Shown here: positions 2,133-6,759 of the stretch, piece after piece | How positions within the stretch are numbered: position 1 is the first letter of the stretch | Layout: every line of letters begins with the position of its first letter | Source: an uncultured Bacteroidota bacterium | Lineage (GTDB): Bacteria; Bacteroidota; Bacteroidia; Flavobacteriales; Flavobacteriaceae | NCBI GenBank assembly: GCA_902511755.1 | Contig: CABXGL010000004.1 | Span: forward strand, 1-64,000 | Direction: 5' to 3' | DNA length: 64,000 nt | Notes under the pieces: model-generated | Databases searched by the model: none | Told to the model about the DNA's origin: nothing | What the model saw: only the letters and a program-made list of their open reading frames with translations | Translations under genes and position numbers: made by a program

Positions 2133-2984
2133 TTATGGATCTATTAATTCAAATTTGATATTATTATCCATGTGTTTTTGAGATAGTTTATTTATTGATT
2201 TTTTAGATAGTTGAAGTATTCTTGGATATCCACCACATGTTTGAGAATCTCTCATAAGAATTATTATTTTTCCAGATGGAGTTAGTTGGACTGTTCCTTG
2301 CATAACTAATGAAGTAATTATGGAATCAAGTTGATTATCAAATGACTCATTTAATTGATATGCCATTCTATTATTATTATTTGAAATTGTAAATTTTTTC
2401 TTTAATAAAACTTGCTTTTGTTTTATTGTTAATTTATTAAATTCGGGTCCCTTGAAAACTTCAATTGTATTGTTTTTAAAATGTTTCAAATAATTAACAT
2501 TAATTTTAGTTCTTTTAGTCTTTGTTTTTACTGATTTTTTAATTTTTAAACTCTCACCCCTTATTATTCTATTTGATTTAGTAATATTAGAATGCATGCT
2601 TCTACTATTCATGATTTTTTCTGATAAGAAACCTCCAGAAACACCTATATAAGAACGTAATCCATATTTCAATTTCCCGAATTTCAAAACATCACCTTGA
2701 TTCATTTGATATACTCGATTTACATCAATAGAATTATCATTTATTGATGGGCTAATATCTGCTCCTGTAATACATATTTTAGTTTCCTCCAAGAATTTTA
2801 AAACAGGTCCTGTCATCGTTATTTCCATTACGGCATCATTATCATTGTTTCCTAATAATTTATTTGATAGAATTGATGAAAGTTGATCCATTGATCCAGA
2901 TATAGGAACTCCATAATTTTCATATCCAAACCTTCCAAGATCTTGTATTGTCGTATAAAGTCCTGATTTAACAATTTCAATCAT
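2133..2984 (-). CDS. pxpC: 5-oxoprolinase subunit C (biotin-dependent carboxyltransferase/KipA family)
   Basis: N-terminus 'MIEIVKSGLYTTIQDLGRFGYENYGVPISGSMD' is typical of PxpC; adjacent to pxpB and pxpA. Confidence 0.88.
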   Translation of the reverse strand: MIEIVKSGLYTTIQDLGRFGYENYGVPISGSMDQLSSILSNKLLGNNDNDAVMEITMTGPVLKFLEETKICITGADISPSINDNSIDVNRVYQMNQGDVLKFGKLKYGLRSYIGVSGGFLSEKIMNSRSMHSNITKSNRIIRGESLKIKKSVKTKTKRTKINVNYLKHFKNNTIEVFKGPEFNKLTIKQKQVLLKKKFTISNNNNRMAYQLNESFDNQLDSIITSLVMQGTVQLTPSGKIIILMRDSQTCGGYPRILQLSKKSINKLSQKHMDNNIKFELIDP

Positions 2985-3714
2985 TTATTCTAGTTTTTAT
3001 AGGTTTATAAATATTAGATTCAACTTGTATCTTGATTAATTCATGTTCTTTTAATGATATTGGATTGAATTTTATTTTATCTCCTGGCTTAATAAAGCAT
3101 GGAGAGGTCTTATTTATATTAAATAAATTAATTGGTGAGTTTCCAATAATATACCACCCTCCAGGACTATTGTTTGGGTATATTCCAGTTTGTGATCCTC
3201 CAATTCCTATAGCACCCTTAGGAACATTTAAAATTGGTTTTGCTTTACGTGGATGATGTATTTTTTTATCTAATCCTCCTAAATATAAAAATCCGGGAAG
3301 AAAGCCTATGTTATAAACTCTATAATCTTTAGAATTATGTAAAGAAATAATTTCTTCTTTTTTTATAGAAAGGCTTTTTTCTAAATAAGCTAAATCATGT
3401 CCAGGATCAATGTCATAACATACAGGTATTTCCCATTTATTAAAAACTTGTTTTTGCTTTGATCCAATTTTTATATAAATATTGTTTAATTCAGAGATTT
3501 TAGCTTTAGAATTTATAATTTCTCTATATGTAATTAGGAGAGAATTATAGGAGTTTTTTAAATAAATATTTTTGTTTAGATATTTTTTTTCAATTTCTGA
3601 TTTAAATAATAAAATGTTTTCTAAAATAGATTCATTGATTTTCGAAGGCCATTCAACTAAAACAGAGCTTTCTCCAAATCTTTTATATTTTAAATTATAC
3701 GATTTCAATTCCAA
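2977..3714 (-). CDS. pxpB: 5-oxoprolinase subunit B (KipI family)
   Basis: 'IPVCYDIDPGHDLAYLEKSLS' and 'YNIGFLPGFLYLGGLDKKIHHPRKAKPILNVPKGAIGIGGSQTGIYPNNSPGGWYIIG' are PxpB motifs. Confidence 0.92.
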   Translation of the reverse strand: MELKSYNLKYKRFGESSVLVEWPSKINESILENILLFKSEIEKKYLNKNIYLKNSYNSLLITYREIINSKAKISELNNIYIKIGSKQKQVFNKWEIPVCYDIDPGHDLAYLEKSLSIKKEEIISLHNSKDYRVYNIGFLPGFLYLGGLDKKIHHPRKAKPILNVPKGAIGIGGSQTGIYPNNSPGGWYIIGNSPINLFNINKTSPCFIKPGDKIKFNPISLKEHELIKIQVESNIYKPIKTRIND

Positions 3715-4426
3715 GATTATTTAATTTTAAATGTAACTCTTCAAGTAATTCAATAGCATTTGGATTGTCACCATGAATACATAGGGTGTCAAACTCAACA
3801 CTTCTTTCTTTCTTGTCAATACTTATAATTTTATTATTAATAATATTATAAACATGTTTAAACATTTCATTAGAATTTTCTATTAATGCATTAGAATTAT
3901 CTCTAGAAACTAAAGTTAAGTTAGAGTTATAGTTTCTATCTATAAATAATTCATTACATATTATAATTCCTTCTTCTTTTGCCATTTTAGAAATAAGAGA
4001 TGAATAGGGGACATATAATTTTGTTTTCATCTCTTTTGTTATATCAATTATAATTCTTGCAGTTTCTTTATCATTTGATGCAAAATTATAAAGTGCTCCA
4101 TGGGCTTTTATATGATTTAATTCAACATTTTCTTGAATTAATATAGATCTTAAAGATTGTATTTGATTTTTTAATGATTTTACTAGTTTATCCTTACTAA
4201 TATTCATTATTTTTCTACCAAAATTTTTCTTGTCAGGAAAAGATGGATGAGCACCAATTTTTAAATTATTCTTTTTAGCTAATCTTACAATTGACAACAT
4301 AGTCTCTAAATCACCAGAATGTCCTCCACAAGCAATATTACATGAAGAAATTAATGGAAAAAGCAGATCTTCATTACCGATACCTTCACCTACATCTGCA
4401 TTTATATCAATTTTAAGATTTTTCAT
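3695..4426 (-). CDS. pxpA: 5-oxoprolinase subunit A (LamB/YcsF family)
   Basis: 'KIDINADVGEGIGNEDLLFPLISSCNIACGGHSGD' and 'HIKAHGALYN' are LamB/YcsF motifs. Confidence 0.93.
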   Translation of the reverse strand: MKNLKIDINADVGEGIGNEDLLFPLISSCNIACGGHSGDLETMLSIVRLAKKNNLKIGAHPSFPDKKNFGRKIMNISKDKLVKSLKNQIQSLRSILIQENVELNHIKAHGALYNFASNDKETARIIIDITKEMKTKLYVPYSSLISKMAKEEGIIICNELFIDRNYNSNLTLVSRDNSNALIENSNEMFKHVYNIINNKIISIDKKERSVEFDTLCIHGDNPNAIELLEELHLKLNNLGIEIV

Positions 4427-5650
4427 TTATAATAATTCAAAAACTTTTAGAATACTTTTTAATCCAAGAAAAATTGTAATAACTAGAATTAGTAATCCAA
4501 TAAAATTCTGCCATTTAGAATTTTTATATTTTCCTAGAATAGAATCTTTATTTACAATCCATATTAAAAAACCAGCAATTACAGGTAATAATATTCCGTT
4601 AGCCACTTGTGCAAATTTTATTATCTCTATGGATTTATATCCTGAAGATGAAGATATAACTCCAGCCAATAAAATAAAGATCCAAACGCTTCTAAACTTT
4701 AATCCTTTCATATTCAATGACCATCCTAAACATCCAGCAGCTACAAAAGATGCTGCTAGGGGAGCGGTTATTGCACTTGTTATCCCAGCTGAAAATAATC
4801 CAATAGCTAAGATATATTTAGAATAAATACCATAAAGTGGTTCAATTCCCTTAGCTAAATCAGCAGCATTGTTAATATTATCAATATTTAATGAAGCACT
4901 AGAAATAATAATACACATAGATACTATTCCTCCAAGTACAATAGAAACTATCGTGTCATTTCTAGCAAATTTTAAATCACTTTTATTCTTCCATCTTTCT
5001 TTAACTAATGAAGCATGAAGAAAAAGATTGTATGGAACTACAGTTGTACCAATTAATCCAATAATTATTAAAATACTTCCTTCTGGGAATTTAGGTACAA
5101 ATAAACCATTAAATAAATCAGTTATATCTGGTTTAGTTATAATAGCAGTTATAATGAACGATAAACTCATTATTATTACTAAAAAAATCAGGGATCTTTC
5201 AAGAATTTTATAATTTCCTATGTACAGCAAAGAAAATGCTATTAATCCTAAAATAATGCTATAAAAATTGATATTCATATTTAGAATAGTCAAACCTTTT
5301 TCTCCAAAGACAGCTTCTAATCCTAATACGCCCCCACTAATATTTCCTGCTTCATAGGCTGCATTTCCTATTACTATAGCAGATAGTATCAATGTTATTA
5401 CAATATTTCTAAAACCAGGGTTTTTAATTTCTTCTCTAATAACTTGAGAAAGTCCTTTATTTGATATTATACCAAGACGGGCAGACATCTCTTGAAGAAC
5501 TATTGTAGCAATTATTGATAAAACTAAAGTCCATAAAAGAGAAAAACCAAAATCAAGTCCAGCTATACTACATAAAGTGACTGTACCTGGACCAATAAAT
5601 GCTGCAGCTATTAACGGTCCTGGGCCAATATTTTTAAACCATTTTTTCAT
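4427..5650 (-). CDS. Nramp/SLC11-related membrane transporter, non-canonical (no DPGN or MPH motif)
   Basis: Nramp-like fold text: 'IGPGPLIAAAFIGPGTVTLCSIAGLDFGFSLLW' (TM1) and 'IGTTVVPYNLFLHASLVKERW' (TM6); many hydrophobic helices; abuts pxpA. Confidence 0.85.
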   Translation of the reverse strand: MKKWFKNIGPGPLIAAAFIGPGTVTLCSIAGLDFGFSLLWTLVLSIIATIVLQEMSARLGIISNKGLSQVIREEIKNPGFRNIVITLILSAIVIGNAAYEAGNISGGVLGLEAVFGEKGLTILNMNINFYSIILGLIAFSLLYIGNYKILERSLIFLVIIMSLSFIITAIITKPDITDLFNGLFVPKFPEGSILIIIGLIGTTVVPYNLFLHASLVKERWKNKSDLKFARNDTIVSIVLGGIVSMCIIISSASLNIDNINNAADLAKGIEPLYGIYSKYILAIGLFSAGITSAITAPLAASFVAAGCLGWSLNMKGLKFRSVWIFILLAGVISSSSGYKSIEIIKFAQVANGILLPVIAGFLIWIVNKDSILGKYKNSKWQNFIGLLILVITIFLGLKSILKVFELL

Positions 5651-5658
5651 TGATTTTT

Positions 5659-6759
5659 TTATTTTTTTAATGAAATTATTGGAGCTTCATAATTCAAATC
5701 AAGCAATCTAAAATAATTGTTACCTAAAACAATATTTCTAAATGCTTTATCATTTAAATATTTGTTTATTTCACTAGTTACCATTAGATCTGTTTTATAC
5801 GAATCAAAATTTTTGTTAGCTGAAGCGACGAAATCTGTACCTGGTAATATTTTTTCGGAATAGTTATTGAAAAAATTAACATATAAATCACGATATTTTT
5901 TAAAATAATTATCTTCCAGAACCCGCCAAGTAATGTCTAGCATTAAGTTAGGGTATTTATTTAATAGCCTTTTCATGATTTTTATGTGTTCGTTAGGATT
6001 CATATTAGACAATTCCTTAGATAAACCCATATGAGCCCATACAATTTTGTTATTTGGATATAATTTTAATACTTCTTCCATTAGAAATAAATATTTAGTA
6101 TTAGATTGATTATTTCCTAAATCTGAATGGATATTTATAGGTATTTTTCTTTCATTTAATTCACCCATAAAATCTTTCCATTTAGATATGTCTTCTAATA
6201 TAGCTGGTTCATGAAAATTATTTAAAAGTGCTTGTTTTATTAGATTAACTTCTCCCATCCAATTAAAAATATTAGGGTATTCATCGTCTAAAATTTTCAT
6301 TTTTTGTAAAATGTCGCCAGGATTTGCTAAATCTGGGAATGTCATAGAGATAGTTAAATGAATATCTTTTGGTTTTGATTTAATAAAATTTTCAGCATTA
6401 ATGATGTCGTTTTTTATAGTAGGAAGGACAGGAATTCCCGGGCAGTCTAAATAATATGTACAATCTGAGTCAATTGGTACTCTTTGACCAATACCATAAA
6501 CATTAACAAACCTTACATTTGTTTTTCTGAAATAATCAACTAAATCAGAGAATGGAATAGCCTCTCCACCAAATGGCATAAAATGAACATGCGAATCAAT
6601 AATTGGAGTAAAGTTTTCAACGTTTCTGTCAAAGGGAATTTGGTCCCTACCTTTTTCAAAAGAGTTTAAATCTCTATTTAATTTATTAGAATTATTAATA
6701 GAGAATGAAAAAATAATTAAACTTGCTATGCTAAGAAAAATAAGAATGTTTTTTTTCAT
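5659..6759 (-). CDS. Exported amidohydrolase-superfamily (TIM-barrel) hydrolase
   Basis: Signal peptide; metal-ligand motif 'IIDSHVHF'; 'INIHSDLG', 'VWAHMGLS', 'LPGTDF'; co-directional with the pxp genes. Confidence 0.72.
   Translation of the reverse strand: MKKNILIFLSIASLIIFSFSINNSNKLNRDLNSFEKGRDQIPFDRNVENFTPIIDSHVHFMPFGGEAIPFSDLVDYFRKTNVRFVNVYGIGQRVPIDSDCTYYLDCPGIPVLPTIKNDIINAENFIKSKPKDIHLTISMTFPDLANPGDILQKMKILDDEYPNIFNWMGEVNLIKQALLNNFHEPAILEDISKWKDFMGELNERKIPINIHSDLGNNQSNTKYLFLMEEVLKLYPNNKIVWAHMGLSKELSNMNPNEHIKIMKRLLNKYPNLMLDITWRVLEDNYFKKYRDLYVNFFNNYSEKILPGTDFVASANKNFDSYKTDLMVTSEINKYLNDKAFRNIVLGNNYFRLLDLNYEAPIISLKK

Follow-up and report, generated by a model that had tools for sequence, protein, structure and literature searches.

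The transporter encoded at positions 4427–5650 of the analysed stretch of DNA (64,000 nucleotides; hereafter the window) is, on sequence comparison, a member of one coherent and previously undescribed clade of Nramp-related proteins, here denoted W. We consider W to comprise LeuT-fold secondary carriers of the SLC11/Nramp superfamily whose former divalent-metal site now accommodates a small organic anion, and predict that they most likely import 5-oxoproline (probability approximately 0.78). The 5-oxoproline reading rests on the modelled fold and the motif positions within it, on loss of the metal ligands throughout the clade, and on linkage to two unrelated kinds of oxoprolinase.

The transporter gene and its operon

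The transporter open reading frame (minus strand) is intact, has an ATG start, encodes 407 amino acids and matches the Pfam Nramp profile with E=4.7e-92. It occupies second place in an operon with the order amidohydrolase, transporter, pxpA, pxpB, pxpC, the members of which are as follows.

5659..6759, minus strand: operon gene 1, Amidohydro_2 protein, apparently exported (Pfam Amidohydro_2, 4.5e-7)
4427..5650, minus strand: clade W Nramp-related transporter, predicted 5-oxoproline importer (open reading frame, Pfam Nramp, tree, model)
3695..4426, minus strand: pxpA, 5-oxoprolinase subunit A, LamB/YcsF (Pfam LamB_YcsF, 2.7e-74; NCBIfam PxpA above cut-off)
2977..3714, minus strand: pxpB, 5-oxoprolinase subunit B, TTG start as listed (Pfam CT_C_D, 3.7e-58; NCBIfam TIGR00370 above cut-off)
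2133..2984, minus strand: pxpC, 5-oxoprolinase subunit C (Pfam CT_A_B, 6.9e-66; NCBIfam matches below cut-off)

The initial annotation described the transporter as fused into a 5-oxoprolinase operon. There is no fusion, the transporter gene merely adjoining pxpA, with its stop codon abutting the pxpA start (0 bases between); the operon context is nonetheless borne out by the open reading frames, Pfam and NCBIfam, with pxpA, pxpB and pxpC following directly and all three PxpABC subunits assigned to their families (PxpC by Pfam, its NCBIfam matches being below cut-off).

Modelled fold and substrate-site residues

The AlphaFold model of the transporter (pLDDT 92.1, pTM 0.91; 48-sequence alignment) shows a LeuT fold in which TM1 and TM6 are broken; this, together with the Nramp profile, places the protein within SLC11/Nramp at the level of fold. 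Foldseek returned EleNRMT as the best match (TM-score 0.85), with DraNramp also at about 0.85; the next matches after the Nramps were ApcT and other APC amino-acid carriers, at about 0.57–0.69. The modelled helices break at I19/G20 (TM1) and V204/V205 (TM6), precisely at the two motifs, 'AAFIGPGTVTLC' and 'TTVVPYNLFLH', which align without gaps to the canonical 'DPGN' and 'MPH'. The positions concerned are as follows.

5582..5593, minus strand: TM1 unwound motif G20-P21-G22-T23, replacing Nramp D-P-G-N (alignment, helix break in model)
5342..5353, minus strand: TM3 E100-A-G-N103, at D131/E134 of DraNramp (alignment)
5030..5047, minus strand: TM6 unwound motif T202-T203-V204-V205-P206-Y207, replacing A-T-V-M-P-H (alignment, helix break in model)
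4598..4609, minus strand: TM10 Q348 to N351, the Gln being the retained Q378 equivalent and Asn351 common to YcsG and NRMT (alignment)

In DraNramp, Mn2+ is bound by D56, N59, M230 and the carbonyls of A53 and A227, with Q378 nearby, and a D56A variant has lost transport (PMC10185341). The TM1 Asp has been called universally conserved across SLC11 and its mutation in NRMT strongly impairs transport, whilst Met-to-Ala mutants still transport Mn (PMC8806188); loss of the Met alone would thus mean little, and the Asp matters most. Relative to Nramp numbering, the site replacements in W are D56>G, N59>T, M230>V, H232>Y and E134>N. The initial observation that DPGN reads GPGT and MPH reads VPY, with Asp, Asn and Met all replaced, is therefore confirmed by the gapless alignment, and the replacements are conserved clade-wide. 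The alignment and modelling that it suggested rule out that DPGN-equivalent residues lie elsewhere in the protein, the helix breaks coinciding with the motifs.

The alignment of 61 W proteins contains no canonical metal site (DPGN in TM1, MPH in TM6); GPGT and VPY stand in its place in all members, with G20, P21, G22, V205 and Y207 each in 61/61, T202 in 60/61, and T23 as Thr in 58 and Ser in 3. N103 (TM3) and Q348 (TM10) are likewise invariant (61/61 each). The acidic/His proton path of canonical Nramps is also absent, since D56, E134 and H232 are all replaced, the latter two by invariant Asn and Tyr, and the D131 equivalent, E100, is Glu in 45 proteins and Gln in 16; E100 is the sole acidic residue among the site positions examined. 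Motif conservation in our 80-locus scan is partly built in, as the scan used those motifs, and we therefore recounted on 36 W-clade proteins collected without any motif-based search: G20, T/S23, V205, Y207 and N103 were each present in 36/36. S292 and T295 (TM8) are invariant in W but common in MntH too, and so offer no argument for a sodium site. The earlier suggestion that the protein is probably not a transition-metal carrier is supported by the change of TM1 Asp to Gly and TM3 Glu to Asn in 61/61 W proteins, and it holds up better than the basis originally given for it.

Extent and placement of clade W

In our trees W is distinct from MntH, NRMT and the YcsG type, with SH-aLRT support of 97 in one tree and 81/92 in the careful tree. 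It ranges over Bacteroidota, Gammaproteobacteria and haloarchaea, with single members in Streptomyces, a Clostridia MAG, SAR324 and a Planctomycetaceae MAG. YcsG-type proteins, which are ~20% identical to W, form their own 100% clade on a separate and very long branch. Support for grouping W with YcsG is weak (78/64); the sister relation of W to YcsG or MntH has supports of 66 and 78/64, with p-AU 0.46 for W+MntH. W and YcsG either share a common ancestor with an organic substrate or have converged; both ways, their shared residue signature surrounds the substrate site and eliminates the two acidic residues retained by metal carriers. Absence of DPGN and MPH is not new in itself, as a preprint has described 'Nramp-related proteins', a paraphyletic and diverse set without these motifs, of which EleNRMT is its characterised example (PMC12873925).

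A W subclade ('VTY') has 'AAFVGPGTVLTC' and 'V[TA]YNLFLH' (L135:2011-4979, L136:1974-4970, L138:6215-9191); its W genes lie directly downstream of two 2-oxoacid:ferredoxin oxidoreductase subunit genes (KorA/KorB-like), and the 'VTY' genomes examined have a hydantoinase-B gene away from W. The genome of the window (G000:C5) also carries a second, very divergent Nramp-family paralogue (L002:1399-2610), present in most relatives, with 'IGVSHLVQSTRAG' in TM1 and 'GWMPAPLDIS' in TM6 and with the metal ligands absent as well. Another Nramp-related type, on its own long branch, has 'FGPGSLTINTK' in TM1 and 'QAGN' in TM3 (L022:1411-2661).

Genomic pairing with unrelated oxoprolinases

Both pxpA and pxpB lie directly downstream of the transporter in 17/17 relatives from the Pfam search, the window locus included. 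We surveyed 295 Bacteroidota genomes, each at least 90% complete; an oxoprolinase-type gene (PxpA or oxoprolinase/hydantoinase-B) occurs in 61/61 genomes with W compared with 39/234 without. W at ≥44% identity is present in 35 of the 295 genomes, and pxpA in 34 of those 35 compared with 22 of the 260 lacking such a W (Fisher 1.6e-28, the counts not being phylogenetically independent). In 30 of these genomes pxpA is immediately downstream on the same strand, with a gap of mostly 9–29 bp, and the lone genome without pxpA has, 0.6 kb from W, a gene for a 1253-aa protein of OPLAH architecture in which HyuA and HyuB are fused. W at 34–40% identity is present in a further 26 genomes, with Hydantoinase_B in 21 and pxpA in 5; 14 of the 22 hydantoinase-B genes in this group are ≤5 kb from W. 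The neighbourhood survey called for in the initial annotation hence finds that GPGT/VPY transporters co-occur with pxpA and with other oxoprolinases.

In haloarchaea W is immediately upstream of hyuA-hyuB, and W overall neighbours three enzyme forms, namely PxpABC, split HyuAB (haloarchaea included) and fused OPLAH. PxpABC, which is a 5-oxoprolinase, is made up of LamB/YcsF and carboxyltransferase-like subunits and belongs to entirely different Pfam families from OPLAH/HyuAB. W proteins linked to HyuB-type genes are not monophyletic (p-AU 3e-27), indicating that the transporter stayed whilst the enzyme was exchanged more than once. That the common substrate of these unrelated enzymes is 5-oxoproline is the strongest argument for 5-oxoproline as the predicted substrate of W, and the pairing with two unrelated oxoprolinase kinds lends support to the earlier proposal that the protein may move this compound.

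Most gammaproteobacterial W genes stand alone with no oxoprolinase adjoining, and a search for a conserved neighbour of these stand-alone genes found none. Elsewhere in the genome, pxpA is present in 29 of 30 such cases and Hydantoinase_B in the remaining one; the base rate of pxpA in Gammaproteobacteria is 14/143, from an even draw of the class that included one W genome. Within the genus of the window, 10 of 22 genomes have W and exactly these 10 have pxpA, the genomes being MAGs in which absences are soft.

A DUF2891 gene (PF11199; solved as 8ieu/8iev) is often directly upstream of W in Flavobacteriaceae (L130:3841-4998, L017, L102, L110, L113, L115, L122, L123, L109, L121, L007, L015, L016, L019, L068, L142), with L068 having it after pxpC and L142 near OPLAH. 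The Amidohydro_2 gene of the window operon, kept in just two other loci found (L009 and L011, both of the same genus), occupies the slot that DUF2891 holds in other Flavobacteriaceae. In C. jejuni, DUF2891 occurs with DUF969/DUF979, and a mutant in the three genes is unable to use 5-oxoproline (PMC12795558). DUF2891 may be an unrecognised member of the 5-oxoproline pathway.

YcsG-type proteins and conflicting published roles

B. subtilis and C. glutamicum depend on YcsG/PxpT to grow on 5-oxoproline, and the authors of that work consider uptake likely (PMC13274462). The same protein, as MntG, has been reported, from cell Mn levels and growth, to be a Mn importer, in work that warned of polar effects in an earlier deletion (PMC10448178), and MumT of A. 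baumannii has been reported, on similar measurements, to be a Mn importer needed for urea use (PMC5050338). By sequence, the Acinetobacter MumT is of YcsG type and is located beside pxpA.

Six residues, G20, G95, G102, N103, Y207 and P340, are common to W and ten YcsG proteins at ≥90%, whereas MntH and NRMT differ at all six; the YcsG residues were read from Klebsiella, Lactobacillaceae, Acinetobacter, Deinococcus, Moraxella and alphaproteobacterial relatives. The resulting Gly/Asn/Tyr site signature is found in W and YcsG and is absent from metal carriers.

Both on plasmids and in Acinetobacter (mum), YcsG-type operons (L042, L127, L152, L153, L156) contain pxpA and a urea-amidolyase-like gene, with hydro-lyase and biotin carboxylase genes where annotated. 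The Acinetobacter 'Mn and urea metabolism' operon resembles a 5-oxoprolinase-type operon with further genes.

Proposed mechanism and alternative substrates

We infer that W would import 5-oxoproline (pyroglutamate), which PxpABC would then hydrolyse to glutamate with ATP. In APC amino-acid carriers, the unwound TM1 is rich in glycine (G-S/T-G motif) and the substrate carboxylate binds at the start of TM1b. By analogy, and with less certainty, the carboxylate of 5-oxoproline might be held at the N-terminal end of TM1b of W by the G22-T23 backbone and the Thr hydroxyl, with the lactam ring possibly contacted by N103, Y207, Q348 and N351; the D56>G and E134>N replacements may take away charges that would repel the carboxylate.

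Transport of another small organic substrate of the same enzymes or pathway (hydantoin or another lactam, glutamine/glutamate), or export of a product, is unlikely, although several observations would fit it. The HyuAB-type neighbours may be hydantoinases (NCBIfam gives related lactamases alone, below cut-off), and since such enzymes can act on hydantoins and other lactams, the common substrate might be a broader class of compound; the TM1 side of the site is uncharged and compatible with small carboxylates or amides in general. The 'VTY' subclade adjoins KorAB-like genes, and this location beside ferredoxin oxidoreductase genes, like the oxoprolinase-free gammaproteobacterial neighbourhoods, counts against the 5-oxoproline reading. 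Nonetheless, the simplest substrate that PxpABC, fused OPLAH and HyuAB have in common is 5-oxoproline, and growth on this compound depends on the YcsG clade (PMC13274462), which carries the same Gly/Asn/Tyr signature.

The main counter-evidence to import of 5-oxoproline is the published Mn roles of YcsG and MumT, by analogy with which W would be a Mn2+/Mg2+ importer supplying a metal cofactor to the neighbouring enzymes. The Nramp fold, the Mn and Mg carriers as closest solved structures, retention of the TM10 Gln, and the finding of no DPGN-type MntH among W-carrying relatives are all in keeping with this role, which we nevertheless regard as improbable. In 61/61 W proteins Gly replaces the obligatory Asp of TM1 and Asn the Glu of TM3, whereas NRMT retains both acids, and the acidic E100 is itself replaced by Gln in 16/61. 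Same-genus genomes without W likewise have no DPGN Nramp, so that W is not their shared Mn route, and the published Mn data are whole-cell measurements on the YcsG clade, not on W. Movement of ammonium or a monovalent cation that the 5-oxoprolinase reaction requires or gives off is very improbable: a protein that has lost its divalent site could take on this role, and ion balance could matter to enzymes that use ATP and yield glutamate, but the site has no conserved acidic residue and pairing with unrelated oxoprolinases favours a shared organic substrate over a cofactor ion.

Implications

If W does import 5-oxoproline, the database label 'divalent metal transporter' carried by its members in Bacteroidota, marine Gammaproteobacteria and haloarchaea would be wrong clade-wide, W-bearing organisms would acquire a predicted means of scavenging pyroglutamate, and SLC11 would represent one fold moving between metal cations and an organic anion. 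W is predicted to be a second, unstudied Nramp-related lineage importing 5-oxoproline. More tentatively, and at somewhat less than even odds, we suggest that at least two widespread Nramp-fold lineages, W and YcsG, carry 5-oxoproline in the site used by their relatives for Mn2+/Mg2+, that Gly/Asn/Tyr marks the switch, and that the Mn assignments of MntG and MumT reflect indirect effects. The contradiction over YcsG, as 5-oxoproline carrier or as Mn importer, is thereby made testable, and the site residues favour the 5-oxoproline carrier.

Comparison with known systems

Canonical MntH/DMT1 Nramps (clades A–C) have the same fold and the same TM1 and TM6 breaks as W, to which they are 20–29% identical in structural alignments, but possess DPGN, MPH and the proton-path Asp, Glu and His, all of which W lacks. 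APC carriers (ApcT, a CAT homologue, AdiC) have the LeuT fold in common with W, although kinship at the sequence level is absent. EleNRMT and other NRMT Mg2+ transporters are, as W, without the metal-site Met and Asn, and share the TM6 Thr and the TM10 Gln/Asn; however, they retain the TM1 Asp and TM3 Glu that are Gly and Asn in W, which forms a separate clade and does not belong to NRMT. DUF969/DUF979 and the TRAP proteins DctP6/DctP7, for which 5-oxoproline has been proposed or shown as ligand (PMC12795558; PMC13274462), have been described as DUF969/DUF979 and TRAP-type systems and not as Nramp-related proteins, which sets them apart from W.

The initial annotation pointed to ycsG, an Nramp-like gene located with the ycsF/kipI/kipA 5-oxoprolinase genes of B. 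subtilis. YcsG/PxpT/PxpG of B. subtilis, C. glutamicum and C. difficile resemble W in their Pfam Nramp fold and pxpA linkage, and YcsG, like W, has GPG in TM1, Gly at the D56 site, Asn at E134 and Tyr at H232; it differs in having Phe in place of Thr after GPG, and Gly in place of both V205 and Q348. The similar position with pxpA/B/C genes therefore stands, but the window transporter is a distant relative lying outside the YcsG sequence clade (~20% identity), and orthology to B. subtilis YcsG is ruled out by the 21% identity in structural alignment and the separate clade.
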